From: Caldisericum sp.
GTDB lineage: Bacteria; Caldisericota; Caldisericia; Caldisericales; Caldisericaceae
Reading direction: 5' to 3'
Assembly (NCBI GenBank): GCA_020692945.1
Contig: JAIMJY010000003.1
Location: 1 to 39,977, forward strand
Length of the DNA: 39,977 bases
Under the pieces are notes generated by a model. It was not told the DNA's origin. It searched no databases and saw only the letters and a program-made list of their open reading frames with translations. Positions 14,534 to 29,832 of the stretch are shown here, one piece after another. Within the stretch, counting starts at the first letter, position 1. Every line of letters begins with the position of its first letter. Made by a program: the position numbers and the translations under genes.

Positions 14534-14910
14534 TAGCTGAACATACTCTTTCCGTTCTTACTCTATTTGGAACACCTCCTCTATGGAAACTCCGGATAGA
14601 CACCTTTGTAATGAGATACAGTATAATCTTTGGAAGTATTCCCAAAGACATACTTACCAATCTCTGCTCTGTGGACTGTTCTAAACCAGTTGAATGTTGT
14701 TTCAGAGAGGATGTGGTAGAGCTTAAAAACAATTGAAGAATAAGGAAGAGAAGAAAAAGTTTTGAGTTGTGGTATCCTCACTGCATATCACTCCCTTACA
14801 TAGAACTGAAGACCATTGCCTTTTGAGCTTATCCTTAATTTTTTGATATTATACTTTTAAAAGTATACATTAAAATGAAATTCATAAAAATAATTGTTCA
14901 CTCTTAAAAG
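14534..14910. other. 377-bp spacer between converging operons; no convincing gene
   Basis: This gap lies between gmk (plus) and the stalk-domain protein (minus). Short frames exist on both strands. The best is a 66-codon GTG-start minus frame at 14581-14781 with AGGGAG 9 nt upstream, but its product (TTFNWFRTVHRAEIGKYVFG in the middle) matches no family I recognise. An overlapping plus-strand frame is equally open. I read the stretch as decayed sequence. It also contains the palindrome at 14850-14867. No clear intrinsic terminator was found for gmk. Confidence 0.5.
14850..14867. repeat. Perfect 18-bp palindrome
   Basis: TATACTTTTAAAAGTATA reads identically on both strands. It lies in the spacer between gmk and the stalk-domain gene. 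Read on the minus strand, its right end extends into TATAAT, a possible -10 box for the short 66-codon frame downstream. It has no GC-rich core or following T run, so an operator-like site is more plausible than a terminator, though AT-rich palindromes also arise by chance. Confidence 0.5.
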
Positions 14911-16527
14911 TCAATTTTTAACAGTTATGGTAATCTCTTTCGTAGTAGGATTCCAGTTAACAGTCCCGTCTAAAGCCTCACCTATAAATCTTAGAGGAAC
15001 CATTGTTCTGCCAGGTGGAATAATTTGAGGTGAAACATCCATAGTAGTCTCTTGAAGATTGACTCTTGCGGTCATTTTGCCTATCCAAATTTCAATCAAT
15101 TTTGGCGAACTGGTCTCAGTTGCTTCTTTCTTTATTGTAACTTTTTTTTCATTCGAATTCCATTCTATGTTTGCCCCTAAAGCTTGAGATATAAACCTTA
15201 CAGGGACTAAGGTTCTGCCAGACAATTTGTCAATAAATGGTGCTGCATCAAGATTTATGGCTTCTCCATTGACATAAGCAGTCAATGAACCTATTTTTAG
15301 CTTTACTGTCACTCCTCCTTGAGGCATTAACTTGAAGTTGATATAAACTGTTTTATCTCCACCATTCGACGATAGCTTAACTGGGATGGAATAAGAATCT
15401 GGATTAAGAGTTGAAGTATCAATCTCAAATTGAGGTTCAGATTGGTCTGTAAAGGTTGTAGATTTAAATTTCACAAATGATGAAGCAGTCGCTGTTCCGC
15501 TCAAAGAAGTAAGTCCAAGATTTCTGACAGTTATTGTACCTGAGATTTTGATACCCTTTTGAAAGGCTCCAAGGTCGACTTCATCTTTACTTAAAAGAAA
15601 TGGTTTCGATAGATCCACAGAGTACACTTTGCCGGTGCTATCGCCAATAGATAAACTCTTTGTTGCGTTCTCAAGGAAAATCGCTGTTGGAGAAATGATC
15701 AAATCTTTAAAAATCTGAGTAAAATTTACTCCGTCTATCGTAGCAAAAGCACCGAAATCAGATAGGGCGACAAAAAGCCTGTTTGAAAAATATAGCAAAG
15801 TACCAACGTAAGGGTTCCCACCAATAATGTTAAGAGATTTAAAGTTTCCACTCTTAACGTCCCCTACGAATAAACCTGCATTTGTTCCCGAGAAAATATT
15901 GCTTCCAAAATAAGACAGAGATGTTATTGTATAATCTTTGAATATGTTGACCCAGTTGCAGCTTTCACTAAGGTTGTCTGAATAGAAAAGTCCAAAATGA
16001 TCGGTGCCGAGGAAGAATCTTCCGGATGGCGTTTTAATGAATGAAGTCGTCTTAAGTGTCGGTAAGCCGCCATTCCTTTCTACCCAGGTCAAACCTCCAT
16101 CTAAGCTTAAGTGGAAGCCGCTGCAAACCGAAGTAACATAAATTGTATTCTTTTCGGAACTAATAGACGTTACTGTTGGGCAGTCTACCTTGCTCGCTAA
16201 AGAATCCCATTTTTCAGCATCGTAATTCCCGGAATACAGCCCGCCTTCTTTTGTGCCTATAAAAATTATTTCTCCTACCTTAGTGATACCTGTTATTTCA
16301 AGGTCAGAAAGACCTTTATTTTTGGCTAAGAAGTTTTTCCCGCCATCCAGTGAAACATATAATCCTGAACTTGTTCCAATGAAAATCTTTTTATTTTCCG
16401 CAAAAAGTGTGGTAATTGGGTAAGGCAAGTCAATAATTTCACTTGGATTAGTTTCACCAATTGTTTTTAAAAGAAAAAGTTGCAAACTGATTATGATAAC
16501 ACTTACGACAATGATAATTTTTTTCAT
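14911..16527 (-). CDS. Exported BNR/propeller protein with two C-terminal stalk domains
   Basis: A 538-aa secreted or surface protein. Residues 1-24 form a signal peptide or anchor. About 35-305 is a repeat-rich beta-propeller-like region with BNR/Asp-box motifs SLDGGKNF (59-66) and SLDGGLTW (141-148) and repeated FIGT-GLY blocks. An Ig-like section (about 310-402) follows. Two copies of the 'copper amine oxidase N-terminal-like' stalk domain end the protein: RTLVPVRFISQALGA near 438-452 and RTMVPLRFIGEALDG near 507-521. These stalk domains are common in surface proteins of low-GC anaerobes and do not imply amine oxidase activity. It is last in the polA-coaE-nuclease operon, with GGGAGG before ATG 16527. 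Function is unknown; adhesion or envelope sensing is a guess. Confidence 0.85.
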   Translation of the reverse strand: MKKIIIVVSVIIISLQLFLLKTIGETNPSEIIDLPYPITTLFAENKKIFIGTSSGLYVSLDGGKNFLAKNKGLSDLEITGITKVGEIIFIGTKEGGLYSGNYDAEKWDSLASKVDCPTVTSISSEKNTIYVTSVCSGFHLSLDGGLTWVERNGGLPTLKTTSFIKTPSGRFFLGTDHFGLFYSDNLSESCNWVNIFKDYTITSLSYFGSNIFSGTNAGLFVGDVKSGNFKSLNIIGGNPYVGTLLYFSNRLFVALSDFGAFATIDGVNFTQIFKDLIISPTAIFLENATKSLSIGDSTGKVYSVDLSKPFLLSKDEVDLGAFQKGIKISGTITVRNLGLTSLSGTATASSFVKFKSTTFTDQSEPQFEIDTSTLNPDSYSIPVKLSSNGGDKTVYINFKLMPQGGVTVKLKIGSLTAYVNGEAINLDAAPFIDKLSGRTLVPVRFISQALGANIEWNSNEKKVTIKKEATETSSPKLIEIWIGKMTARVNLQETTMDVSPQIIPPGRTMVPLRFIGEALDGTVNWNPTTKEITITVKN

Positions 16528-16529
16528 AA

Positions 16530-17297
16530 TTATACCTCCCTTGTAATTTCTTTTTTAGAAAAGGCCGAACAAATTTCTCTGAAGTCGCAACTAGAGCAGT
16601 ACCCATTTAATTTAGGGTAAAAAACTCCATTTCTAATAAGTGAACCAACTTCAATAATCTTCTGTTTTCCTTTATTCATAAGATGCTCATCAATTTCAAA
16701 GTCTATCATTTTCTGGTGCCTCAAAAAATAAAGAACAACTTTTTCAACTTCAATATCTTTTATAATATAATCAATTGCAATCCTGTAAATGATTGGTTGC
16801 AAAAGTTCGTCTTCCTTGAAGAACTCAGGCAAGAAAGAGGATGTTTTATAATCAATTATTGTGAACTTGCCATTTCGCTCGTCAATTCTGTCTATCCTTC
16901 CTTCTACTTTGAAACCTTCAAGCTCAAAAGAAAAAACTTTTTCAACTGAATAAGCTGGCTTAAAGCCAAAAATATGTTTTCTGTAAAAATCAGTAAGAAT
17001 TTTTTTTGCCTCTCTTTTAGCCCTTAACTCATCACTGAAAGTTGAGTATCCGGCACTTATCCAACTTCTTTCAAGGAGCTCCATAAGGTAGGAATACGGA
17101 TTCTTTTTCAAGTCTTTAAAATTTTTATTGGGGTCGTAGAATTCCTCTAAGGCCTTGTGAATTGAATTACCAAAGCTAAAATAACTTTTTGCTAGTGTTG
17201 GTAAATTGTCAATATACATAAATTTATATTTAAGCGGACACTTTAAATATGTTGAAATTTTTGAATAACTTAGATAGAACTGATTATTTTCTTCCAT
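16530..17297 (-). CDS. RecB-like PD-(D/E)XK nuclease with probable 4Fe-4S cluster
   Basis: A 255-aa stand-alone nuclease resembling the C-terminal domains of AddB/RecB and Cas4. H47, D136 in GRIDRID, D149 and K151 in IIDYKTS and the QPIIYR motif (167-172) make the active site. C20 near the N terminus plus C234, C237 and C243 in the C-terminal CSSCDFREIC block are the four-cysteine pattern of Fe-S nucleases. No helicase domain is attached. It overlaps the end of coaE by 28 bp, but the YSKISTYLKC motif begins so near the N terminus that no later start is reasonable. The polA operon points to a DNA repair or recombination role; no cas genes are near, so it is not annotated as Cas4. Confidence 0.86.
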   Translation of the reverse strand: MEENNQFYLSYSKISTYLKCPLKYKFMYIDNLPTLAKSYFSFGNSIHKALEEFYDPNKNFKDLKKNPYSYLMELLERSWISAGYSTFSDELRAKREAKKILTDFYRKHIFGFKPAYSVEKVFSFELEGFKVEGRIDRIDERNGKFTIIDYKTSSFLPEFFKEDELLQPIIYRIAIDYIIKDIEVEKVVLYFLRHQKMIDFEIDEHLMNKGKQKIIEVGSLIRNGVFYPKLNGYCSSCDFREICSAFSKKEITREV

Positions 17298-17869
17298 AAC
17301 TCTAATACTAATCCTTTAACTTTCTCAAAATCTCTCTCATTATTGATAACAGTATCTGCTCTCCTTATTTTTTCTGAAATATCCATCTGTGAGTTTATAA
17401 TTGTAAGAGCTTCAGTTTCGTTGATTTGCTCTCTGTTCAATAGCCTTTTGAGTTGCACGCTTTTCGGAACATAAACAACCCAAACCTCATCCACAAGTTT
17501 ATCCCATCCCGCTTCAAATAGAGTTGCAGCGTCAACAATTACAACTGGGGTGTTCATCTTTCTGAAGTGATCAATCAAGTAAACCAATTTATCAGTCATT
17601 AGAGGAAACATTATTTTGTTAAGCATCATCATGTTTTCAGGTTTGTTAAATATGGTTTTAGCAAGAGCTTTCCTGTCAATTTTATTGTTCACCACAAAAT
17701 TTGCTCCAAAACATAATGCAATTTTATCCCGTACACCATCGTAATTATCTTCTTGTATTTGCTTGCCTACCTTATCCATATCTATTATTTCAGCTCCAAG
17801 GCTGTTTAGGAAACTGGAAATTGCACTCTTCCCAGAAGCTATGTTACCTGCAAGCCCTATTACTTTCAC
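17270..17869 (-). CDS. coaE: Dephospho-CoA kinase
   Basis: A 199-aa kinase for the last step of coenzyme A synthesis. P-loop GNIASGKS (8-15), the IIDMDKVGK motif with the catalytic-region aspartates, and VVDAATLFEAGWDKLVDEVWVV (read in parts near 111-133) are typical, as is RLLNREQINETEA for the lid. It starts at ATG 17869, overlapping the polA stop by 4 bp; pairing of polA, mutM and coaE is common in bacteria. It ends inside the start of the nuclease gene. Confidence 0.95.
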   Translation of the reverse strand: MKVIGLAGNIASGKSAISSFLNSLGAEIIDMDKVGKQIQEDNYDGVRDKIALCFGANFVVNNKIDRKALAKTIFNKPENMMMLNKIMFPLMTDKLVYLIDHFRKMNTPVVIVDAATLFEAGWDKLVDEVWVVYVPKSVQLKRLLNREQINETEALTIINSQMDISEKIRRADTVINNERDFEKVKGLVLELWKKIISSI

Positions 17870-20385
17870 GCTTTTGCCTCTAACAAATTATAACCATGAG
17901 CTACATTCACCTTCAATGGAACAGATAGACTAACCACATGTTCCATTTCATTTTTAAGGAGACTCTCTGCTGTTGAGAGTGATTCTAGGCTTGATTCTAT
18001 GACAAGCTCGTCATGTACTTGGAGGATTATGTGTGCATCAATATGTTTAAACTTCTCATAAACATTGACCATTGCCAACTTTATTATATCCGCAGCGCTA
18101 CCTTGAATGGGACTATTTATGACAATTCTCTTTGCGTTTTCTCTTACAGAATTATTTTTACTAAAGAGTCCGTTGATTAGACGACGTCTTCCAAGAATAG
18201 TTCTTGTTTCGCCAGTCTCTAAAGATTTTTTAATTGTTTCTTCGATATAATTTTTTACCCCCTGATACTTTGCAAAATAGCCATCGATAATACCCTTTGC
18301 TTCTTGTGTAGAGCAACCAATTTGTTTAGAGAGGCCATAAGCCGAAATCCCATATATTATACCGAAATTGACGACCTTTGCACGATTTCTAATGGCAGCG
18401 GTTACTTCATTCTCTCGAAGATTGAAAACTTCCATTGCAGTGAAAGTATGTATATCCTCATCTTTTTGAAATGCTTTAATTAAGCGTCCATCTCCGCTTA
18501 AGTGGGCAAGGACTCTTAACTCGATTTGTGAATAATCGGCACTTACCAGGACGTGCATTTTGTCTTGCGAAATAAAACCTCTCCTTACCTTCCCTCCCCA
18601 ATCTCCTTTAATCGGTATATTCTGAAGGTTTGGATTAGTACTCCTTAGCCTTCCTGTTGATGTCCCTAAGTGTTGAAAATGAGTGTGTAGCCTCATATCT
18701 TCCTTAGAAATTAAATGAGGGAGCGAGTCGATATAAGATGATTTTAGTTTATTTAAGTGCCTGTACTGTAAAATTAGAGGAACAATAGGGTGCTTATCAA
18801 TTAAATCTCCAAGAACTGCACTGCTTGTGGCAAAGTTGAATTTTCCCATTTTTTGTGGAGAAAGTCCTAACTCATCAAACAGAATAGCGGACAACTGTTT
18901 ATTGGAAAGGATGTTAAACGAAATGCCTGCTAAACTATAGATTTGCTTTTCAATTTCTGAAATTAGTTTAGCAATCTCTTCAGAAAGAAACGAAAAATAT
19001 TCCAGGTCAATTTTTATTCCTCTCTCCTCCATATCAAGAAGTATTGGAGCAAGAGGAATTTCTATTCTGTTGTAAAGATCAAAAAGGTTCAAAGATAGAA
19101 GTCTTTGTTCAATGATGGTTGCAAGATCATATAAAAACTTGGCTTTTGCAGCGAGGCTTTCTGCTTCGTAAGAAACTCCAAACTCATGGGCAAGATATGC
19201 ATTTGAACAATTTAACCTGTCGGGGTCGATCAAGTATGCCCCCAGTAAAACGTCGATATGAATATTGCGTGGAGCAAAACCAAACTGTTTCGCTACCCAA
19301 TACATCTCCTTTATATCATAAATCTCTTTTCTAATACCTGGGTTTTCAAGAATATCTTTCAGGATAGTAAAGGATTTTTCATTTCTGAATAATTCTTGCC
19401 CAGTCGTGTATTCATTGACTGACGAATCGTTTGCAACCGCAAATCCTCTAAGATTGCGGTTATCATTATCAAAAACAATACCAACGGATTTTGTCTGTTC
19501 GTCCAATAGGGATAGAGGTTGAATTTCTTTTTTACTTTCAAACCCAACCAACTTCAGTAAAGTTTTAAATTCCAAACCCTCAAGTACTTTTAAAACGTTG
19601 TCATTTCTGAAGTCGTGAACCCGCAATGCATTAAGGTCAAATGAAACAGGAACATTATTGACAAGGGTACAAAGCTTTTTATTCATTACAATTCTTTCAG
19701 TAAACGGTTTATACTTTCCTTTATCGATTTCGTTGATGTGGTCTATTAAACTTTCGATTGAATTAAAACTGTTTAAAAGTCTCTGAGCAGTTTTAGGCCC
19801 AACTCCTGGAATTCCAGGAATATTATCAGAAGAATCACCACATAATGCCTTATAATCCGGAACTTGTTCTGGGAAAACACCAAGAGTTTTAAGTAGGAAT
19901 TCACGGTCCATCTTTTCTATGACAGTAACCCCTTTCTTTGTAATGAGCACTTTGACGTGATCGTTAATCAATTGCGTTAAATCCATATCACCACTGAGAA
20001 TCAAGACTTGCAAATTTTTGCCGCTTAGCTTATGCACAAATGTAGCAATCAAATCATCTGCCTCATAGCCGTCAAGCTCAAAAAAATTAATGCCGAAAGC
20101 GGCAAGGACCTCTCGAACAATTGAAAACTGCAAAGAAAGCTCATCAGGCATTGGAGGTCTTTGTGATTTATATTCTTTAAATTCAATATGCCTAAAGGTA
20201 GGGGCTTTCTTATCGAAGGCAACTGCAAGATAATCTGGATGCTCGTCTTTTAAAATTCGGATGAGCATCTGTAAAAAGCCATAAATTGCACCCGTCGGTT
20301 CGCCTTTTTTAGTCATAAAATGAGGAAGAGCGAAGAAGGCTCTATAAAGGATGCTGCTTCCATCAATTAGTAAAACTTTTTCCAT
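17866..20385 (-). CDS. polA: DNA polymerase I
   Basis: An 839-aa family A polymerase. The N-terminal 5'-nuclease (1-290) has LLIDGSS, the GYEADDL acidic cluster (106-112) and the H3TH segment GDSSDNIPGIPGVGPKTA (183-200). The middle (about 300-420) sits where the 3'-5' exonuclease belongs but lacks DxE, NxxxD and YxxxD motifs, so proofreading is probably absent, as in Taq polymerase. The polymerase core has motif A SADYSQIELR with D617, motif B RNRAKVVNFGIIYG with R668/K670/F674/Y678, and motif C VHDELVIE with H791-D792. It has its own promoter overlapping the end of comEC and no Shine-Dalgarno sequence. coaE follows with a 4-bp overlap. Confidence 0.97.
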   Translation of the reverse strand: MEKVLLIDGSSILYRAFFALPHFMTKKGEPTGAIYGFLQMLIRILKDEHPDYLAVAFDKKAPTFRHIEFKEYKSQRPPMPDELSLQFSIVREVLAAFGINFFELDGYEADDLIATFVHKLSGKNLQVLILSGDMDLTQLINDHVKVLITKKGVTVIEKMDREFLLKTLGVFPEQVPDYKALCGDSSDNIPGIPGVGPKTAQRLLNSFNSIESLIDHINEIDKGKYKPFTERIVMNKKLCTLVNNVPVSFDLNALRVHDFRNDNVLKVLEGLEFKTLLKLVGFESKKEIQPLSLLDEQTKSVGIVFDNDNRNLRGFAVANDSSVNEYTTGQELFRNEKSFTILKDILENPGIRKEIYDIKEMYWVAKQFGFAPRNIHIDVLLGAYLIDPDRLNCSNAYLAHEFGVSYEAESLAAKAKFLYDLATIIEQRLLSLNLFDLYNRIEIPLAPILLDMEERGIKIDLEYFSFLSEEIAKLISEIEKQIYSLAGISFNILSNKQLSAILFDELGLSPQKMGKFNFATSSAVLGDLIDKHPIVPLILQYRHLNKLKSSYIDSLPHLISKEDMRLHTHFQHLGTSTGRLRSTNPNLQNIPIKGDWGGKVRRGFISQDKMHVLVSADYSQIELRVLAHLSGDGRLIKAFQKDEDIHTFTAMEVFNLRENEVTAAIRNRAKVVNFGIIYGISAYGLSKQIGCSTQEAKGIIDGYFAKYQGVKNYIEETIKKSLETGETRTILGRRRLINGLFSKNNSVRENAKRIVINSPIQGSAADIIKLAMVNVYEKFKHIDAHIILQVHDELVIESSLESLSTAESLLKNEMEHVVSLSVPLKVNVAHGYNLLEAKA

Positions 20386-20397
20386 GATTTATAAGCT

Positions 20398-20427
20398 ATT
20401 ATAATCAATAAACTAAAATTTTGTTAA
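20398..20427 (-). promoter_or_regulatory. polA promoter overlapping the comEC stop
   Basis: On the minus strand TTAACA, an 18-bp spacer and TATAAT (20398-20403) precede polA. The -10 box ends 12 nt before the ATG, so the transcript would have only about 5-6 nt of leader, and no purine-rich ribosome site is present. The promoter partly overlaps the last codons of comEC. Confidence 0.6.
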
Positions 20428-22387
20428 TCAGTGCTGGGTTGATGTCTCTCACACTAAACAACATTTGCGGAACATAGATTGCACTATAATCACTGCAATA
20501 CTGAGGAATTTGGCTAGAATTGGAAATGAAAGCTATTTTTTTGTCAGGTGATTCAATTAAGACAACTGAAGATGACATTATTTTTACCTTTATCGTATGT
20601 AAATTTATAGTATCATTTTCTTTAACAACATTTATTTGAACACTTTTTGGAAGATTAGCATAAAAATCTTGCGAGCCATAAGCAAAAACGTTTTCCACTT
20701 TAAAGGTTCTGTCATTCAGAAGATCTATAGCAAAGGACCATTCGTTAGAGGATAAATTATGAGTTACAATAAGACCGTCAATTATATTTACTCCGTTTTT
20801 TATTAGAGCTTGCCTAAGAAGATTGTAGTCTTTCTCTTCCAATTCTCCTCCATTATTAGAAAGAACGATAATGTTTGTTGATCCTTGGTGAAAAAATAAA
20901 AGATTTTCACCTTGAAAGGAATAAGCGTGAGAAAAAGCACTTCCATAACCAAATGAAACAAGAAAAGTAAAAATGAATACTATTAATGCCACTACTGCAG
21001 TTCTATTATTGCGTTTATACATAGAGAAAATAAATACTCCTGCCACACCGTACTGGATAACCATTTTGAATATATTTGAACTAACGTAAAAATGGCTGAA
21101 ATTAAAATTTGAAACAAAAACAACAAATTTATTCAATATTTCAAAAAGAAAATTTGAAACTGGAGCAAATATTTTTGCCAAATTAATGGTAAAAGCACTA
21201 AATACGATCTGTACAAAGCCCGCTGGAACAAGCACATATAAGAATGGAATTACTATCAAATTAGCAACAAAAGCACTCAGCGAAACTATGTTGAAATAAT
21301 TAGCAATAAGCGGTGAAATAAATAGTTGCACGGAAACTAATTGCGAGAAAAGACTAATCAATTTTCCCTGAGGAAAATTTTTAGAAACCAGCTCTGGGAC
21401 AACGAGCAATGCAAACACTGCCATAAACGAAAGATAGAAACTAAGAGAAAGAATGGATGAAGGAAATACAATTAAGACGAAAAAAGCTGACACAAAAAGA
21501 GAATTGAGAGAATTGTGTCCCGTACCCAAAAACTTAGAAAAAAGAGTAATTGAATACATAATGAAAGCTCTCAAAGCCGATACCTTAAAGCCTATTAGCA
21601 AAAGGTACAAAAGCAAAAAAATAATTGTTATAAAGGGTGAAAATAATGTAAACTTACTCAAAAAACTTCTTAAAGTCTCGCCGAGAATTCCTACATGAAG
21701 CCCTGAAATTGCAAAGATATGAGCCGTACCTGTATTAATATATGGCTCTTTCTCTTCATTGGACATCGAAGATATGCCAAAAATTGAAGAGAGCAATAAA
21801 AAACTCTCTGAGCTTTTCATCGACAGTTTAATATTTTCAATAATACTATTTCGCACTTTAGCAATGAAAGAAAAAAATCGATTTACTTTTACGATTGACA
21901 AAGTGTCCGGGAAAATATAGTAATCATAGCCTACTATGCTCTCAATAAAAGAGCTGTTTTCAGTAAATTTTATTTTTCCTTTAACGATAACGGAGGAATA
22001 GGCCGTTGGCGGTTCGTAATCTATATAAACTTTTAAATTGCCAGCGTATCGCTTCTCCCCAATCCGAATGTTTGCCATTATGAAGCTTTTCGGGTTGTAG
22101 GATTCCGAGGAGAAACCTTCAACCTTGCCATAAATAATTGTCGTACTCTCCTTAGTTTCCGATGGAATTTTATCTATCAAGTAAGGCGAAAAATTAAAAT
22201 ATGAAGTTAAAAGACTAACGATGAAAATGATTACTACATAGATTTTGTATTTTCTCGATGTAAATAAAAAGTTTAAAATTAAAAGAGGAAGCAATATAAT
22301 TACAAGGTCTGGACGTTTTGCACTTAAAGACAAAAAAATAAGAATCCCGCTTATGGTTGAACTAAGAATATTTAGAGAAAGCATCAA
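20405..22387 (-). CDS. comEC: ComEC/Rec2 DNA-uptake channel protein
   Basis: A 660-aa multi-pass membrane protein moving single-stranded DNA across the inner membrane in transformation. Paired hydrophobic helices (about 5-65) lead into an OB-like soluble domain (about 80-165). The Competence domain begins near 195 and holds the hallmark TAHIFAISGLHVGILGE (221-237), followed by many hydrophobic segments to about 490. The C-terminal 150 residues keep the position of the beta-lactamase-like domain, but only VTHNLSSNEW appears where HxHxDH is expected, so metal binding is probably lost. It overlaps comEA by 4 bp. Family identity is strong; nuclease function of the tail is doubtful. Confidence 0.93.
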   Translation of the reverse strand: MMLSLNILSSTISGILIFLSLSAKRPDLVIILLPLLILNFLFTSRKYKIYVVIIFIVSLLTSYFNFSPYLIDKIPSETKESTTIIYGKVEGFSSESYNPKSFIMANIRIGEKRYAGNLKVYIDYEPPTAYSSVIVKGKIKFTENSSFIESIVGYDYYIFPDTLSIVKVNRFFSFIAKVRNSIIENIKLSMKSSESFLLLSSIFGISSMSNEEKEPYINTGTAHIFAISGLHVGILGETLRSFLSKFTLFSPFITIIFLLLYLLLIGFKVSALRAFIMYSITLFSKFLGTGHNSLNSLFVSAFFVLIVFPSSILSLSFYLSFMAVFALLVVPELVSKNFPQGKLISLFSQLVSVQLFISPLIANYFNIVSLSAFVANLIVIPFLYVLVPAGFVQIVFSAFTINLAKIFAPVSNFLFEILNKFVVFVSNFNFSHFYVSSNIFKMVIQYGVAGVFIFSMYKRNNRTAVVALIVFIFTFLVSFGYGSAFSHAYSFQGENLLFFHQGSTNIIVLSNNGGELEEKDYNLLRQALIKNGVNIIDGLIVTHNLSSNEWSFAIDLLNDRTFKVENVFAYGSQDFYANLPKSVQINVVKENDTINLHTIKVKIMSSSVVLIESPDKKIAFISNSSQIPQYCSDYSAIYVPQMLFSVRDINPALINKILVY

Positions 22388-22962
22388 TTGACAGTAATCA
22401 AGTCTTTGAGTGACTCAAATGTCTTCTCTCCAATTCCTGATACGTTAACGATTTCTTCGATTGTTTTAAACTTACCATTTTTATTTCTATAATCAATAAT
22501 TGCCTGCGCTTTCACGTCACCAATTCCTGGTAGGCTTATTAGTGCATCTTTTGATGCAGTATTAATATTAATTTTTTTACTATTGTTCGAGCCCGATGTA
22601 TCGGCAGAGGATGCGGAACCATCTGAGTTTTTAAAAGGTACAATAATTTCTTCTCCGTCCTCAAGCTTTTTAGCAAGGTTAATTGCTATTAAGTCTGCAT
22701 CTGATGTTGCTCCTCCTGATTTCAATATGGCATCCTTCACAATGCTTCCTTCTTCAAAAGTATAGACATCAGGGTTTTTTACGGCACCCGCTACATAAAC
22801 TTTAATAAGCAAAGGAGACTTAGGGATTTCTATCTGTGTTGAAACTACAGGCTGCTCAGGAGTTTTTGGTAATTCTTTTTGAACAAGCATTCCTGCACCA
22901 AAAAATACTATTGCAGAAAGAATTAGGATAATAACCCATTGTTTTATAGAAAATTTTTCCAT
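22384..22962 (-). CDS. comEA: ComEA-type DNA receptor (SLBB + helix-hairpin-helix)
   Basis: A 192-aa membrane-anchored DNA-binding protein for DNA uptake. One transmembrane helix (about 8-26), a proline-rich linker, an SLBB domain (about 52-112, with IKVYVAGAVKNPDVY and an IIVPF end), a Ser/Asp/Asn-rich linker (113-127), then the helix-hairpin-helix pair: ININTASKDALISLPGIG (130-147) and GKFKTIEEIVNVSGIGEKT (163-181). Domain order and length match ComEA. SD GAGG precedes ATG 22962. It overlaps comEC by 4 bp, the usual competence pairing. Confidence 0.95.
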   Translation of the reverse strand: MEKFSIKQWVIILILSAIVFFGAGMLVQKELPKTPEQPVVSTQIEIPKSPLLIKVYVAGAVKNPDVYTFEEGSIVKDAILKSGGATSDADLIAINLAKKLEDGEEIIVPFKNSDGSASSADTSGSNNSKKININTASKDALISLPGIGDVKAQAIIDYRNKNGKFKTIEEIVNVSGIGEKTFESLKDLITVN

Positions 22963-22994
22963 AGTATTTACCTCGTCTTAAAGTTCTTGATTAC

Positions 22995-23813
22995 TTACTT
23001 TTGACATAAAGAACAAAAGTAAGTTTTTCTGCCATCAATTTTAGTCGAAGAAATCAAAGAATCGCAATCATTGCATTTTTGAAACTGTCTTTTGTGCACT
23101 TTGAAATGTTCGTTGAAATGACCTTTTTCTCCATTAAGATGCACGAAAGAAAGTTCACTCTCTCCACCATATGCTCTTGCTTCCTCGAAAACTAAGAAAA
23201 TGCTTTCATAAAGCGCCTTTTCCTCGTAATTAGAAAGCGTTCCACATCTTCTGGTTGGGAGAATTTTTGCTTTAAATAGAATCTCGTCCGAGTATGCATT
23301 TCCTATGCCTGCTATCAAATGCTGGTCGGTCAACGCCTGCTTGATAAATTTCTTGGGATTTAAAAGTATTATTTTCTCAAGTACCTGAAGAGTAAAATCT
23401 GGGCTTAAAGCATCAACTCCTTGAACTTTTAGGTTTCTATCTAAAAAAACTTCGCTGGTTTTGATTAAGCGGACAAAAGCATTGCCCATAAGTCCACCAA
23501 TACATAAGCAATTTCCATCGCTAAAAATAATACCAGCCTGGAGCTTACTTATGTCAAAAGCAGAACTCAACCTCATATATCCAGTCAGCAAAAAATGTAC
23601 TATGATTGATATATTACCTGTAAAATCAAGAATCAAGACTTTGCCTTTCCTTCTGGCACCAATAATTGATTTTCCTCTTAATATACCAGCAAATTCATTC
23701 CTACTTACATTAGATGCCTTCTCTTTGTTTAAAAAAGAATCTGCAACGGTTTTACCTATTAATTGAGAGTTAATCTCTTGCCTAAGAAAATCAATTTCAA
23801 TTATTTCTGGCAT
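22995..23813 (-). CDS. mutM: MutM/Nei-family DNA glycosylase
   Basis: A 272-aa Fpg/Nei-type glycosylase that removes oxidised bases. P2 and E3 (MPE start) are the catalytic pair, K56 in RRKGK matches the conserved beta-hairpin lysine, IGNAYSDEILFKAKILP carries the H2TH signature, and the C terminus is a four-cysteine zinc finger (CNDCD...CSLCQ) with the R of DGRKTYFC. Two oddities: the usual MPELPEVE start is MPEIIEID, and the region that normally reads DxRRFG reads GLMGNAFVRL, so the 8-oxoG 'void-filling' loop is altered and substrate may differ. It follows eno by 3 bp behind AAAGGAG. Family sure; strict Fpg specificity unsure. Confidence 0.88.
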   Translation of the reverse strand: MPEIIEIDFLRQEINSQLIGKTVADSFLNKEKASNVSRNEFAGILRGKSIIGARRKGKVLILDFTGNISIIVHFLLTGYMRLSSAFDISKLQAGIIFSDGNCLCIGGLMGNAFVRLIKTSEVFLDRNLKVQGVDALSPDFTLQVLEKIILLNPKKFIKQALTDQHLIAGIGNAYSDEILFKAKILPTRRCGTLSNYEEKALYESIFLVFEEARAYGGESELSFVHLNGEKGHFNEHFKVHKRQFQKCNDCDSLISSTKIDGRKTYFCSLCQK

Positions 23814-23816
23814 AAA

Positions 23817-25103
23817 TTACTCCTTTAAAAATTTTTCAAAGATAGACAAACCAGCGTATCGAGCCGATTCGCCAAGCTCCTCCTCTATTCTTAAAAGCTC
23901 ATTGTATTTCTCGAGTCTTTCTACTCGGCAAGGAGCGCCGCTTTTCAACTGCCCGGTCCCTAATCCTACGACTAAATGGGAAATAAATGTATCTGCTGTT
24001 TCCCCAGACCTATGAGAAACAATTGAGTTAAAGCCTGCATGCTTCGCCTTGTTCACTGTGTCAATAGTTTCTGTTAGCGTCCCTATCTGATTTAACTTAA
24101 TTAAAATTGAATTAGAAGCAGAAAGTTCTATCCCTTTCTTTAGTCGATTTGGATTAGTAACATATATATCGTCACCAATAATTTGAATACTACTGCCTAA
24201 AGTTTTTTCTAACTCAATCCATCCATCCCAGTCTTCTTCTGCGAGTCCATCTTCAATGGAAATAACTGGGAACATTGAAGCAATTGATTCATAAAACTCA
24301 ATCATCTCTTTTGCGCTTCTTTTTTTCCCTTCAAAATCGTAATAATTTTTCTCATTAAAGAATGAGTTAGCTGCTGAATCAATTCCAATAAGAATATCCG
24401 TGCCAGGAACGTACCCAGCTTCACTTATTGCCTTTACGATGTAGGAAAGAGCTTCTTCTGTATCCTTAAGTCTTGGAGCGAAACCACCTTCGTCACCTAT
24501 ACTAATTGAAAAACCATCTTGCTTAAGAATTGCTGCAAGTTTATGATACACTTCCGATCCAGCACGCAAAGCATCGGTAAATTTATGCATTCCAGCAGGC
24601 ATAATGAGAAACTCTTGGATGTTTAACCCTGAATCGGCATGCTCTCCTCCATTAAGTATGTTAAACTGTGGCACTGGAAGCAGATTCTCAGAGATACCAC
24701 CGATATACCTGTACAGAGGAAGCCCGTATTCATCAGCAGTAGCTCTTGCAATTGCAAGAGAAACACTTAGAATTGCATTTGCACCTAGTTTTTCCTTATT
24801 ATCTGTTCCGTCAAGGTCAATCATCAGGCGATCTATCGAGCCTTGGTCTTCTGAATTCAACCCGATGACATTTTCGGCAATAATTTCATTCACGTTGTTA
24901 ACTGCCTTTAAAACTCCCTTGCCATTAAAACGTGATTTATCATTATCTCTCAACTCCACTGATTCATGTTTTCCTGTAGATTTACCAGATGGAACAGATG
25001 CTTTTGCAATAATACCACTTTCAAGCATTACTTCGGTTTCAATAGTCGGATATCCTCGGGAATCCAAAATTTCTCTTGCTTTTAAAGCTAAAATTTCTCC
25101 CAC
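23817..25103 (-). CDS. eno: Enolase
   Basis: A 428-aa enolase (2-phosphoglycerate to phosphoenolpyruvate). AREILDSRGYPT at the N terminus, substrate loop SGKSTGKHE, E164 and E205 (SIGDEGGFAP), metal ligands D242, E284 (SIEDGLAEEDW) and D311 (GDDIYVTN), catalytic K336 (LIKLNQIGTLTE) and SHRSGET (363-369) are all present. The normally alanine position in NGGxHA is glutamate here. The start codon is GTG at 25103 behind AAGGAGG. It sits between recR and mutM, an unusual place for a glycolytic gene that nonetheless looks part of the same transcript. Confidence 0.97.
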   Translation of the reverse strand: MGEILALKAREILDSRGYPTIETEVMLESGIIAKASVPSGKSTGKHESVELRDNDKSRFNGKGVLKAVNNVNEIIAENVIGLNSEDQGSIDRLMIDLDGTDNKEKLGANAILSVSLAIARATADEYGLPLYRYIGGISENLLPVPQFNILNGGEHADSGLNIQEFLIMPAGMHKFTDALRAGSEVYHKLAAILKQDGFSISIGDEGGFAPRLKDTEEALSYIVKAISEAGYVPGTDILIGIDSAANSFFNEKNYYDFEGKKRSAKEMIEFYESIASMFPVISIEDGLAEEDWDGWIELEKTLGSSIQIIGDDIYVTNPNRLKKGIELSASNSILIKLNQIGTLTETIDTVNKAKHAGFNSIVSHRSGETADTFISHLVVGLGTGQLKSGAPCRVERLEKYNELLRIEEELGESARYAGLSIFEKFLKE

Positions 25104-25119
25104 CCTAATTCACCTCCTT

Positions 25120-25716
25120 CTAAAATTCTTTTCTATCTTTCATTGCCATTGATAGCGTTACAGAATCAACAAAGTCTATTTCGGTTCCCTTTGGGAGTCC
25201 CATAGCAATCCTTGTGATTTTAACCCCAAAAGGCCTCAAAAGCTTTCCAATATAAATGGCAGAAATATCTCCATTAAAATTTGGATTTGTTGCAATAATA
25301 ACTTCTTTAACCTCTCCGTCTCTAAGGCGCTCTAAAAGCTCTTTAATTCGTATATTTTCTGGAGTTAAGTGATTCATCGGGTCAATTCTTCCCTGTAGAA
25401 CGTGATAAACTCCATCGTATTCACCGCTCCTCTCAATTGCAAATAGGTCTCTTACTTCTTCCACAACACAGATCTTACTATGATCCCTATTGGAACTACT
25501 ACAAATATTGCATATTTTGCTATCGGTAATATTGAAACAAACCGGGCATAGGTGAATCTTGGAACGAGCGTCTGAAATTGAACTTAGAAGAACAGACGCT
25601 TCGTTGTCACTCACAGAGAGAATATATAAAGCAATTCTTTCTGCGCTTTTAGGGCCTATACCAGGAAGTTTTGCTATTTCTGTGATTAATTTATTTAACT
25701 TGTTTTCTATTTCCAT
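25120..25716 (-). CDS. recR: Recombination protein RecR
   Basis: A 198-aa RecR, partner of RecF/RecO in loading RecA at gaps. An N-terminal helix-hairpin-helix (LPGIGPKSAERIA, 17-29), a zinc finger of C57, C60, C69 and C72, then a Toprim domain (from about 81, ICVVEEVRDLFAIE) and the C-terminal ATNPNFNGD segment that continues to the Walker-like end. The ATG shares its last base with the ybaB stop codon (TAATG). The order dnaX-ybaB-recR is a widely conserved arrangement. Confidence 0.96.
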   Translation of the reverse strand: MEIENKLNKLITEIAKLPGIGPKSAERIALYILSVSDNEASVLLSSISDARSKIHLCPVCFNITDSKICNICSSSNRDHSKICVVEEVRDLFAIERSGEYDGVYHVLQGRIDPMNHLTPENIRIKELLERLRDGEVKEVIIATNPNFNGDISAIYIGKLLRPFGVKITRIAMGLPKGTEIDFVDSVTLSMAMKDRKEF

Positions 25717-26039
25717 TAGTTAGGGAAACTAAGCCCAGGGAACCCTCCATCAGCAATTCCAAGTGAAGACAGCTTCTCTTGAGCAATCGCTCTTGCCTTC
25801 TCTTGAGCATCTTTTATGGATGCTACTATCATATCTTCAAGCATCTCTTTATCGTTTGATTCAATAAGAGAAGGTGCAATTTCGATTGAAACTACTTCAA
25901 GTTTACCTGTTACCTTGGACTTTACTAAATTCCCGGAAGAAAACCCTTCAACCTCAAGATTGTTTAGCTCTTCTTCAATTTGCTCCATCTTTTCTTGAAG
26001 CTCCCTGGCTTTTCGCATCAATTCATTCATGTTTTTCAT
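25716..26039 (-). CDS. YbaB/EbfC nucleoid-associated protein
   Basis: A 107-aa DNA-binding protein of the YbaB/EbfC family. The N-terminal helix (MNELMRKARELQEKMEQIEE) and the strand-rich centre with GxxVKSKVTGKLEVVSIEIAP (about 37-58) followed by a MLEDMIVASIKDA helix match the family; the tail is Gly/Pro-rich. It acts as a dimer on DNA. Its ATG overlaps the dnaX stop by 4 bp, as expected for the dnaX-ybaB-recR operon. Confidence 0.94.
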   Translation of the reverse strand: MKNMNELMRKARELQEKMEQIEEELNNLEVEGFSSGNLVKSKVTGKLEVVSIEIAPSLIESNDKEMLEDMIVASIKDAQEKARAIAQEKLSSLGIADGGFPGLSFPN

Positions 26040-27619
26040 TTTTCCTCCTTCCGTTCAGCTACATCAGTAACAGCTCCATCAAATAATTTGAGAACTTTCT
26101 TAACTTCGGGCTTTTCCGAAACTTCACGCAAAGCCTCGTCTTTATTGAATGGAGTTGTCTCATTTGGTTCTGTAAAGGAAACCAAAAATTTACTTCCAAC
26201 TATCTGGAAAATTGCTTGTTCAACTATATCAGTGTTTGGCGTCAGCCTTAGCAATGAAAGATAAAACTTCTTTTCAGGCAAAAGAGTGAGTGTACTATTT
26301 TTTAGTTCAACAGGAGTCGCTCGCAAAAGCATAGAATAGAGAGAAATGCTTTTAGATTTAATGACTGCTAAAATTTCATTCCACATTATTTTTATTTTCT
26401 CTATTGAAAGCTCTCCCGTGTCCTTGAGCTCAGTAACTAAAGTGGCAGCAGGTTCAATAAGTTTAGTGAGCGTTTGCACAGAAACCTTGGAAAGCTCTGC
26501 CTGTTTCTGTGCAACAGGTGCTGAAGCAACTTCAACTTCACCAATGAAATTCAATAAGTTAAGCAAAATTGGAAAATAAGGTTCCCTGAAGTTCTTAATC
26601 TTATTAAGCGTATCAATTAAAACACTTGAAAGCTCTATCAGCTTTTTTGGGGAAATAAATTTTGCTTGCTCTTTAATTATATCGATTAGTTCTGAATCCC
26701 TCTTATCAAGGAGAAAATCTGTTCCAGCTATACGAGCAGTAATAATATCTTGAAGGTAATCAAGCAATTCATTTAGGAATACTTTTGAATCTTTACCACC
26801 GTCACGCATTTCATTTATGTATTGTAGCAAATTAGCTTGATTTTTGTTAATAACAGATTCTACAAAATTTGGGAAAACTCTCTCATCGGGAACGTCAAAT
26901 AGATTACGCAAACTCTCCTCGTTAATATCTGACCCATACATTGTAATTGCTTGGTCTAAAAGGCTTAGAGCATTTCTCAAAGAGCCTGATGACAGCCTTG
27001 CGATAAGAAGAGAGGCAGCTTGAGTAACTTTAACATTTTCAGATTCAGAAACAAAAATAATTTTTTTAATTAGGTCCTGTATCGAAATTGGCTTGAAATA
27101 AAACCTTTCACATCTTGAAATGATTGTTGCAGGGATTTTTTCGGGTTCTGTTGTAGCAAGTATGAACAAAACATTTTTAGGTGGCTCTTCGAGAGTCTTT
27201 AATAATGCGTTAAAAGCTTGAGGGGTAAGCATGTGGGCTTCGTCAATTATATAAACTTTATATTTCGAGCTAACGGCAACATACTGAACTTTATCTTTCA
27301 AATCCCTAATTTCGTCAATTCCTCTGTTCGAGGCTGCATCTATTTCAAGAACGTCAAGGTTGTTGCCATTGGTAATGCTTAAACAACTCTTACACTCCAT
27401 ACATGGTTCGTCGGTTGGGCCATTTATACAATTTAAGCCTTTTGCAAAAATTCTTGCTACGGTAGTCTTCCCTGTTCCTTTGGGCCCAGCGAACAAATAG
27501 GCATTAGCAATCTTCGCCTGTTTGAGAGCCTGACGAAGTATTTGTACGGTTGTCTCTTGACCAGCGACCTCCCCAAAAGTGCTTGGTCTGTACTTCCTAT
27601 ACAGTGCAATATAATCCAT
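26036..27619 (-). CDS. dnaX: DNA polymerase III subunit gamma/tau
   Basis: A clamp-loader ATPase of 527 residues from the preferred start. YRKYRPSTFGEVAGQE opens the protein, Walker A is GPKGTGKT, a zinc module uses the CxxxxxxxxCxxCxxC pattern just after GLNC, Walker B is IIDEAHML, sensor 1 follows as LATTEPEKIP, and ISRCERFYF plus SGSLRNALSLLDQ complete the AAA+ core. The C-terminal third is a divergent tau-like extension. I begin at ATG 27619 because the protein family starts MxYxxLYRKYRP; an alternative TTG upstream would lie inside the promoter. No Shine-Dalgarno precedes the ATG. First gene of the dnaX-to-comEC operon. Confidence 0.96.
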   Translation of the reverse strand: MDYIALYRKYRPSTFGEVAGQETTVQILRQALKQAKIANAYLFAGPKGTGKTTVARIFAKGLNCINGPTDEPCMECKSCLSITNGNNLDVLEIDAASNRGIDEIRDLKDKVQYVAVSSKYKVYIIDEAHMLTPQAFNALLKTLEEPPKNVLFILATTEPEKIPATIISRCERFYFKPISIQDLIKKIIFVSESENVKVTQAASLLIARLSSGSLRNALSLLDQAITMYGSDINEESLRNLFDVPDERVFPNFVESVINKNQANLLQYINEMRDGGKDSKVFLNELLDYLQDIITARIAGTDFLLDKRDSELIDIIKEQAKFISPKKLIELSSVLIDTLNKIKNFREPYFPILLNLLNFIGEVEVASAPVAQKQAELSKVSVQTLTKLIEPAATLVTELKDTGELSIEKIKIMWNEILAVIKSKSISLYSMLLRATPVELKNSTLTLLPEKKFYLSLLRLTPNTDIVEQAIFQIVGSKFLVSFTEPNETTPFNKDEALREVSEKPEVKKVLKLFDGAVTDVAERKEEK

Positions 27620-27625
27620 AGATTT

Positions 27626-27653
27626 ATTATACAACAAATTCTTTTAAATTCAA
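27626..27653 (-). promoter_or_regulatory. dnaX promoter implying a leaderless transcript
   Basis: On the minus strand TTGAAT (27648-27653), a 16-bp spacer and TATAAT (27626-27631) stand directly before dnaX. Only 6 nt (27620-27625) separate the -10 box from the ATG, which places the expected transcription start at or next to the A of ATG. No purine-rich ribosome site can fit. Confidence 0.72.
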
Positions 27654-27676
27654 TCAAATGTGAAGGGCAAAACTAA

Positions 27677-28291
27677 TTACCACTTGACAGGCGTTTCTGG
27701 TTCAGTCCCTTTTGTTATACGCTTTATGTTTTCCCTGAGAGCAAAGAGCAAGAAACTTGCACCAATAGCTGCAAACACAACATAACTTACAGGAAATACA
27801 GACGGAGAGATGAGTCTATAAAAAATGAACATAAGGGCAACAAGGACCCATGAGAAAATCATGTTTGTTAAACTCGTTTTCCTTGTTATGAGGAAAAGAA
27901 TAAGAAGTATCGGAAAAAAATAAACGAAGTACTTGGGGCCAATCAAGCCAAGCGTTGCTCCATAGAACGAAGAGGCACCTTTTCCACCTCGGAATTTAAG
28001 AAAAATAGGCATTACCTGTCCCACCATTGGAAGTAGCGCTACAATGATGACTTGCCACTGATTCAAGTGGTTCACTTTCGCAAGATATGCAGGCAAAACA
28101 CCTTTCGAAAAATCCAAGATGGCTGAAACAACCCCCCATCGCCATCCAAGAGCCCTCGAAACATTTGTGGATGAAGCTGATTTCGAACCAATTTTAAGCA
28201 CGTCAACACCATTGATCTTCCCCACCAGATATCCGAACGGAATAGAACCCAAAAGATAAGCAAATATTAAAAGCAAAATAAAATTAATCAT
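27677..28291 (-). CDS. plsY: PlsY-like glycerol-3-phosphate acyltransferase
   Basis: A 204-aa polytopic membrane protein of the PlsY family, which moves acyl groups from acyl-phosphate to glycerol-3-phosphate. Hydrophobic helices, the opening LLGSIPFGYLVGK and the later KFRGGKGASS match PlsY motifs. The first catalytic motif, usually GSGNxGATN, reads GSKSASSTN here, which is a marked change. It overlaps the PanE-like gene by 4 bp and is likely co-transcribed with it. Active PlsY is likely but the altered motif leaves room for a changed donor or activity. Confidence 0.85.
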   Translation of the reverse strand: MINFILLLIFAYLLGSIPFGYLVGKINGVDVLKIGSKSASSTNVSRALGWRWGVVSAILDFSKGVLPAYLAKVNHLNQWQVIIVALLPMVGQVMPIFLKFRGGKGASSFYGATLGLIGPKYFVYFFPILLILFLITRKTSLTNMIFSWVLVALMFIFYRLISPSVFPVSYVVFAAIGASFLLFALRENIKRITKGTEPETPVKW

Positions 28292-29277
28292 AATTTCTCC
28301 TTAATCGCTTGATATATTTTTTTATTCACTGGCGTATCAATGCCAAGTCCTTCGCCAAGTTTAATAACCGCTCCGTTATAGTAATCAATTTCATCGATAT
28401 TGCCCTTCCCCTTGCCACCTCGCCCTTTGATAATTAATTTACCAGTTTGTTTTCTGAAAATTCTAAGGAAATAAATCGGGACAACGCTAATCAAAAAAGC
28501 AAAAAGTTTTATTGGGTAGTGGTTGAAGTTCAAAAAATGCCCACCACTTTTTTTAACGACATTTATGAATTCTCTTAGAGCCATTATTTCCTCAGTAAAT
28601 ACATTTGCGCTTGCAAACCCTTCCTCAATTGTTAAGCCACGTGCGGAAGAAGCAACTCCAATCAAGTTCGTAAAAAGTTTAGAAAATTCCATGTTCTTAA
28701 CATTCTCTGGTGCAACTTCGTAAGCCTCAATGTTTGCAGTCTTGAAAATTTCCCTTATATCATCGAATTCATCGGGTCCTGAGGCAATGCCAAAAGCTAA
28801 TCTTATCGGCAGGAAATAGGAGATCAATGAAATTTCACCATTTTGTTCAATTGACACAGGATTAAACAGGCTCACTCTTATTATCCTTATTTTTTGGGCA
28901 TTAGCACCAAACATTTTCTCAAGTTCACTATGCGCTTCGTCCGCAGCTAAAAAACCATTTTGAGAAAGAATTAAATCTGGCGGATTCTCTCGATCGGCCC
29001 TTTCATAATAGTATTTTATCACTGGGGCAACAGGATTTTTTGTTGCAAGAAAAATATAATCTACCTTTGTATCTGCGCTAAAATAACTCTCGGAAAAAGC
29101 AACGCAATCAATTTGGATCGGCTTGCCTTCCTCTAAAATAAATACTTTACCCGCTTTAATCTTATCTACAGCACTCTTTCTACCAATGCCTAAAATCGAA
29201 GCAACATTTCTCAGTTCATAGGCAAACAAAGTGCCTGTCCTTCCACTGATTCCAATAACAGCAATTTTCTTTGTCAT
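28288..29277 (-). CDS. Ketopantoate reductase (PanE/ApbA)-like oxidoreductase
   Basis: A 329-aa two-domain NAD(P)H reductase of the 2-dehydropantoate reductase family. The Rossmann loop near residues 7-15 reads VIGISGRTG (GxxGxxG rather than strict GxGxxG). K in EFSKLFTNLIGVASSARG corresponds to the usual catalytic lysine, and the C-terminal domain holds DEIDYYNGAVIKLGEGLGI and TPVNKKIY, strongly family-like. No panB, panC or panD is in the window; the partner is PlsY. A hydrophobic stretch (about 255-272) is atypical for soluble PanE. Reaction on ketopantoate is probable but not certain. It has its own promoter and no Shine-Dalgarno. Confidence 0.8.
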   Translation of the reverse strand: MTKKIAVIGISGRTGTLFAYELRNVASILGIGRKSAVDKIKAGKVFILEEGKPIQIDCVAFSESYFSADTKVDYIFLATKNPVAPVIKYYYERADRENPPDLILSQNGFLAADEAHSELEKMFGANAQKIRIIRVSLFNPVSIEQNGEISLISYFLPIRLAFGIASGPDEFDDIREIFKTANIEAYEVAPENVKNMEFSKLFTNLIGVASSARGLTIEEGFASANVFTEEIMALREFINVVKKSGGHFLNFNHYPIKLFAFLISVVPIYFLRIFRKQTGKLIIKGRGGKGKGNIDEIDYYNGAVIKLGEGLGIDTPVNKKIYQAIKEKL

Positions 29278-29283
29278 ATTTTT

Positions 29284-29311
29284 ATTATATCAAATGTTGA
29301 GAATAATCAAA
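29284..29311 (-). promoter_or_regulatory. Promoter of the PanE-like gene implying a leaderless transcript
   Basis: Minus-strand TTTGAT, a 16-bp spacer and TATAAT (29284-29289) precede the ATG at 29277 by exactly 6 nt, the same geometry as at dnaX. No ribosome site lies between. The -35 box is weaker than at dnaX. Confidence 0.6.
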
Positions 29312-29376
29312 CAAATGCAAAACAGCTTTGTCCTTATGTGGTTAATAAAATCCTTTTTTTAGTTTTTTTTAGTCTT

Positions 29377-29409
29377 GAGCCGCTCGGGATATGGCTCTTT
29401 TATTATTTT
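29377..29409 (+). terminator. Terminator-like hairpin in the panE/queD divergent spacer
   Basis: GAGCC (29377-29381) and GGCTC (29393-29397) pair around an 11-nt loop and are followed by TTTTATTATTTT. It looks like a short intrinsic terminator on the plus strand, yet the nearest upstream plus-strand gene is far away, so what it would stop is unclear. An attenuator in a long queD leader or a block to antisense transcripts is possible. Confidence 0.35.
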
Positions 29410-29433
29410 GTCAATTTTTTCCTTTTTTTTATC

Positions 29434-29460
29434 TTGCAGTTTTGACAAAGCATGTATAAT
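29434..29460 (+). promoter_or_regulatory. Candidate promoter of queD-folE2
   Basis: TATAAT at 29455-29460 is a consensus -10 box; TTGCAG at 29434-29439 is 15 bp upstream. A better TTGACA (29442-29447) is too close to pair with it. Transcription from this -10 would begin near 29467, leaving about 12 nt that contain the GGAGG site. Confidence 0.5.
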
Positions 29461-29478
29461 ATTTAATTGGAGGTAAAA

Positions 29479-29832
29479 ATGTTTTATATTGAAAGAGAGT
29501 TTTGGTTTGACGCCGCACATAGAGTGGTAGATTATTCTGGGAAATGTGAGAACCTGCATGGACATACGTATAAACTTGTTGTTACCGTCTCTGGAGACAT
29601 CAAATCAAACGGAATGGTACTCGATTTTGCTATACTAAAAAGAATTGTTGAGGAGAAAATAATTAATTTCCTTGACCATAAATATCTAAATGACCTGTTC
29701 GAAAACCCAACAACAGAACTTATTGCAAGTTGGATTTACAACACACTAACCGCAGAGCTTAAAAAGCTAGATTGCAAAGTTTACAAAATAACTCTATTCG
29801 AAGGACACAACAATCGGGTGATTGTGAGATGA
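29479..29832 (+). CDS. queD: 6-carboxytetrahydropterin synthase (QueD)
   Basis: A 117-aa 6-pyruvoyl-tetrahydropterin synthase fold enzyme, converting dihydroneopterin triphosphate toward 6-carboxytetrahydropterin in the 7-deazaguanine (queuosine) route. Zinc ligands H14 (FDAAHR), H27 and H29 (LHGHTY), catalytic C23 in the CxxxHGH pattern typical of QueD, H67 (LDHKYL) and E108 are present. I start at ATG 29479 because GGAGG is 5 nt upstream; a TTG 12 nt earlier overlaps that site. It overlaps folE2, which makes its substrate, by 4 bp. Confidence 0.94.
   Translation: MFYIEREFWFDAAHRVVDYSGKCENLHGHTYKLVVTVSGDIKSNGMVLDFAILKRIVEEKIINFLDHKYLNDLFENPTTELIASWIYNTLTAELKKLDCKVYKITLFEGHNNRVIVR

Follow-up and report, generated by a model that had tools for sequence, protein, structure and literature searches.

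Bacterial leaderless genes in which a -10 box adjoins the start codon are widely known, as several papers describe (PMC3160421, PMC5397173, PMC12340547), and a survey of those of the TA-led type covered 953 bacterial genomes (Zheng et al. 2011, PMC3160421). PMC9031893 describes bacterial leaderless initiation as a process in which 70S particles bind an AUG located at the 5' end of the mRNA or close to it. The word "Caldiserica" is absent from the text of the 2011 survey, which lists bacterial groups that have leaderless genes, both "dnaX" and "Caldiserica" are absent from that of PMC12340547, and we found no literature report of leaderless genes for Caldisericum or Caldiserica, a statement that concerns this lineage and not leaderless dnaX genes elsewhere. 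In PMC10783764, Caldisericia are listed with a AAGGAGGU-type SD. Here we describe a predicted leaderless promoter at dnaX in a 39,977-nt stretch of DNA from Caldisericum sp. (assembly GCA_020692945.1, contig JAIMJY010000003.1, positions 1 to 39,977), analysed as a whole and hereafter called the window. The genome to which it belongs has 1,505,152 bases in 207 contigs and a GC content of 32%.

The dnaX ORF of the window scored 465.8 bits against NF004046 (cut-off 400) and 420 bits against TIGR02397 (cut-off 250). Direct reading bore out the original prediction of a TTGAAT/TATAAT pair with a spacer of 16 nt, followed after 6 nt by the dnaX ATG (Table 1); the pair is of the sigma-70 type, with 10/12 consensus matches and a spacer within the range of 15-19 nt, and no SD motif precedes this ATG in the window's genome. 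A promoter scan of 14.8 kb (14800-29600) found 52 promoter-like pairs against a shuffle mean of 43.8 (sd 6.7), which is near chance, and -35/-10 pairs ranked by consensus showed no excess over shuffles in the scanned stretch, where the best match was the promoter-like site before polA. As such pairs occur at close to the chance level, the TTGAAT/TATAAT pair alone proves little, and its position and conservation are what count. With high probability this ATG is the true start of dnaX: the encoded N-terminus aligns with those of 12 relatives (49-62% identity), no further Met occurs before residue 74, and a stop closes the reading frame 27 nt upstream. A start codon further downstream is rejected on account of the conserved N-terminus and the distance to the next Met.

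Table 1. Position of the dnaX promoter and of the surrounding genes in the window
Feature	Coordinates	Strand	Remarks
-35 hexamer TTGAAT of dnaX	27648..27653	-	direct reading and promoter scan
-10 hexamer TATAAT of dnaX	27626..27631	-	direct reading and promoter scan; exact in 13/13 family dnaX loci
Discriminator AAATCT	27620..27625	-	six bases between -10 and ATG, without SD
dnaX ATG	27617..27619	-	its A (27619) is where transcription is predicted to start, inferred from -10 spacing
dnaX, DNA polymerase III gamma/tau subunit	26036..27619	-	527 aa; NF004046, TIGR02397
ebfC/ybaB	25716..26039	-	GGAGG before its ATG
recR	25120..25716	-	one-base overlap with ebfC; no clear SD
eno (enolase)	23817..25103	-	GTG start, AGGAGG upstream
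mutM/fpg-like DNA glycosylase	22995..23813	-	AAGGAG; Pfam domains above cut-off, NCBIfam fpg below cut-off
comEA-like	22384..22962	-	HHH and SLBB; below TIGR01259 cut-off
comEC-like	20405..22387	-	Pfam Competence 146.8 bits
plsY-like, upstream of dnaX	27677..28291	-	129.7 bits, just under TIGR00023 cut-off of 137.2
Second TATAAT-N6-ATG, at panE-like gene	29275..29289 (gene 28288-29277)	-	two genes upstream of dnaX
Promoter-like site before polA, TTAACA-18-TATAAT-N12-ATG	20386..20427	-	11/12 matches; predicted leader ~6 nt

We surveyed 18 genomes of the family, of which 13, over 8 genera, gave a dnaX start; left out were G007, G014, G015 and G017, with only weaker dnaX matches, and G016, cut at a contig end. 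TATAAT precedes dnaX at all 13 starts, six bases before the ATG (N6) at 12 of them and seven (N7) at one (G013), and the start codon is always ATG, with the N-terminus aligned. Columns of the -10 box are identical in 12-13 of the 13 loci, and those of the six bases after it in 5-10. A -35-like hexamer (4/6 matches each) stands 15-17 nt upstream of TATAAT in every case; it is of the TTGA type, at 16-17 nt, in ten loci and differs from that type in the three genomes of genus g7. No SD-like 4-mer was found in the 20 nt upstream of dnaX at 12 of the 13 loci, including that of the window, and L017 has GGTG. The third gene after dnaX, eno, was used as a control and lies on the same contig as dnaX in 11 of the 13 genomes: an SD was present at 14/14 of the eno starts read and TATAAT-N6 at 0/14, a count that leaves out the partial matches L229 and L230 and the weak second match L231. 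Leaderless genes are often reported to have little structure at the mRNA 5' end. When the first 40 nt were folded, 8 of the 13 family members came out less structured than the shuffle mean; the dnaX of the window, at -6.0 versus a shuffle mean of -4.2, was not among these and so drew no support from the comparison.

The spacing, the lack of an SD and the recurrence of N6, with a single N7, give good support to the predicted leaderless start of dnaX. We put at about 0.85 the probability that this promoter is leaderless and inherited in the family, as part of a small leaderless gene set beside an SD majority; as judged from the sequence, the dnaX mRNA has with high probability its 5' end at the first codon and lacks a ribosome-binding leader. 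With the -10 box of a sigma-70-type promoter ending 6 nt before the ATG, RNA polymerase would begin transcription at the A of this ATG, as expected from the spacing typical of -10 boxes and transcription starts, and ribosomes would bind the 5'-terminal AUG directly, like other leaderless bacterial mRNAs. The layout would have been inherited in this Caldisericota family, in which dnaX, rdgB and some others would be leaderless and most genes would use an SD.

Less probable, and still to be taken seriously, is a short-leader or mixed start, in which transcription begins 1-3 nt around the ATG, or from upstream promoters too, so that leadered and leaderless mRNAs coexist. Variation of this kind is suggested by the one family dnaX at N7 and by other genes: for rdgB, another N6 gene of the window's genome, 7 of the 11 starts read are at N6 and 4 at N5 (L243, which gave no start, and L244-L246 are left out), and the orthologs of polA, among 16 starts read, show N6 in G002 and G007, N7-N8 in G006, G011 and G015, and N12 in the window's genome, the remaining ten having no box this close and most of them an SD-like motif. 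The spacing at dnaX itself is tight, which argues against such a start. Concerning upstream promoters, plsY is co-directional with dnaX in the window's genome and lies 57 nt upstream, and the scan placed no terminator-like site between the two genes, so that a leadered read-through RNA is possible; across the family, the upstream ORF is co-directional at 10 of the 13 loci, divergent at two (G011 and G013) and not listed at one. However, dnaX needs its own promoter in the two relatives where the nearest upstream ORF is divergent, and a read-through RNA would carry no SD before dnaX.

Far less likely than either a leaderless or a mixed start is that TATAAT serves translation, as an AT-rich signal such as an S1-binding stretch, with the true promoter further upstream. 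In most family members the region upstream of dnaX is indeed rich in AT and in T, and AT-rich bias upstream of starts may also reflect S1 sites, as mentioned in PMC5397173, but an exact hexamer at a fixed distance with varying flanks, together with a -35-like hexamer at all 13 loci, speaks for a promoter. That TATAAT is a chance AT-rich hexamer in a 32% GC genome is rejected as the least credible reading, because the hexamer, common as it is (182 in 337,024 strand bases of the window's genome), lies within 5-7 nt of the ATG at 13/13 family dnaX loci and is absent from eno.

The order dnaX, ebfC, recR, eno, mutM-like, comEA-like, comEC-like, with gaps or overlaps of no more than 32 nt, fits the proposed seven-gene operon; its description as a set of replication, repair and competence genes stood only in part, as eno belongs to glycolysis and the comEC-like gene is closely followed by polA, coaE and others. 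The genes ebfC, eno, mutM and comEA each have their own SD-like motif and may therefore be translated independently of the dnaX start. To make translation of the whole operon dependent on a leaderless start was thus too strong a claim, also considering the possible read-through from plsY; within the operon, only dnaX itself would rely on a leaderless start. On the upstream side, the panE-like gene, at N6 in the window's genome, has N7-N9 to the ATG in the three relatives that have this gene.

A genome-wide scan for TATAAT-N6-ATG, proposed along with the original prediction, was run and gave 40 sites in the window's genome, whereas N9 gave 12 and the reversed pattern 10. Two of the 40, located terminally on contigs C100 and C162, have an identical flank and are probably one site, and 26 of the 40 open an ORF of at least 60 aa. 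This excess is weaker in a sample of 168,512 bases of the same genome, where the N6 layout was found at 6 of 4,625 ATGs versus 2.5 expected from the density of TATAAT. Among sampled ORFs of at least 80 aa, G006 showed a clear peak, with 10 at N6 and 0-5 at other spacings, and the window's genome, with 4 at N6 and 5 at N22, showed none that was clear. Relaxing the box to TA-N3-T gave no spacing peak in these small genome samples. Summed over the 18 family genomes, the counts were 656 at N6 and 413 at N9, with controls of 278 and 289, and N6 exceeded N9 in 17, the exception being G008 (26 vs 44). A spacing tally over the 100 rows listed of 246 gave 5, 10, 13, 18, 14, 13, 4, 7, 8 and 8 for N3 to N12, that is, a broad rise over N5-N8 with its maximum at N6. 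Some surplus of N6 over the reversed pattern was seen outside the family too, for example a sum of 257 versus 106 in the five genomes of family f3, so that the mode is not restricted to the family. The N6 ORFs of G006 include apparent orthologs of N6 genes of the window's genome, namely rdgB, a phosphoesterase and a methyltransferase (names assigned by eye). As a separate observation, rdgB and a phosphoesterase are divergent neighbours at L097 and L098 (G000:C142:1347-2167), and both have TATAAT-N6-ATG.

We estimated the share of leaderless starts from sampled ORFs of at least 120 aa, 119 from the window's genome and 331 from G006, a single contig of 1,558,103 bases of which 400 kb were sampled. 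Exact TATAAT-N6-ATG was found at 4/119 and 8/331 ORFs, respectively; a looser -10 without SD was found at N6 in 5/119 and 13/331, and at N9 in 1 and 5. An SD-like core stood at a candidate start of 85/119 ORFs in the window's genome (33 at decoy positions) and of 224/331 in G006 (81 at decoys). The 16S end of the window's genome bears GGATCACCTCCTTTCT, and its anti-SD CACCTCCTTTCT is intact. The idea that this genome has lost its SD system is rejected, given the intact anti-SD and SD-like cores above decoys, and leaderless initiation appears to be a minor and inherited mode that exists alongside a regular SD system.

Beyond the family, we compared the dnaX loci of named genomes. Among the 80 matches listed, TATAAT-N6 was present in one, L102 (Caldiserica bacterium UBA646), which is a family member and wholly contains L014 (G005), the two being the same DNA and not independent; the layout was thus found at 0/79 loci outside the family among the matches listed, and 71/80 passed a loose SD test. 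Among 12 dnaX loci of the class read outside the family, several with a start codon that is not fixed, none had N6 and L029 had N7; the class or phylum loci L025, L026, L035 and L038 stand outside that comparison. At four loci of genus g11 (L027, L030, L031 and L034), a TATAAT-N6-ATG lies upstream, its ATG not being that of dnaX. The short ORF opened there ends just before, or overruns, the dnaX ATG, and dnaX of this genus may follow a leaderless leader peptide.

The locus offers a conserved and testable case of predicted leaderless expression of a core replication gene, and the comparison of orthologs points to a leaderless state maintained across 8 genera, with a strong SD retained at a neighbour in the gene row. 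For annotation, starts without an SD, like that of dnaX, can be misplaced. It is doubtful that the leaderless set (dnaX, rdgB and others) is kept in the SD-dominated Caldisericaceae genomes for common control; if it were, its translation would, for instance, persist or rise when initiation factors or ribosome subunits change, and the clamp loader and nucleotide-pool cleaning would be tied to the state of the ribosome. Leaderless translation is marked by use of the 70S or initiator-tRNA-loaded ribosome and by resistance to kasugamycin.

With respect to known systems, dnaX resembles the TA-led leaderless genes as presented in PMC3160421, with a TANNNT/TATAAT-type -10 whose first T lies ~12 bp before the start and with no SD; such initiation is a minority mode in many genomes, as it appears to be here. 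Unlike in Actinobacteria and Deinococcus-Thermus, for which the same text gives more than 20%, the share here is small (4/119 ORFs). With the -10 adjoining ORFs of Deinococcus-Thermus (PMC12340547), dnaX shares the layout and the inferred mechanism, whereas the phylum differs. In the mycobacterial leaderless mRNAs (PMC3898074, PMC4633059), the mRNA begins at the start codon, as predicted here; in mycobacteria this comes from 5'-end mapping and ribosome profiling, while in our case it is predicted, and for an SD-rich, AT-rich genome. In conclusion, the observation at dnaX of Caldisericum is correct, and it represents a conserved case, from a little-studied lineage, of an already known way of expressing genes.
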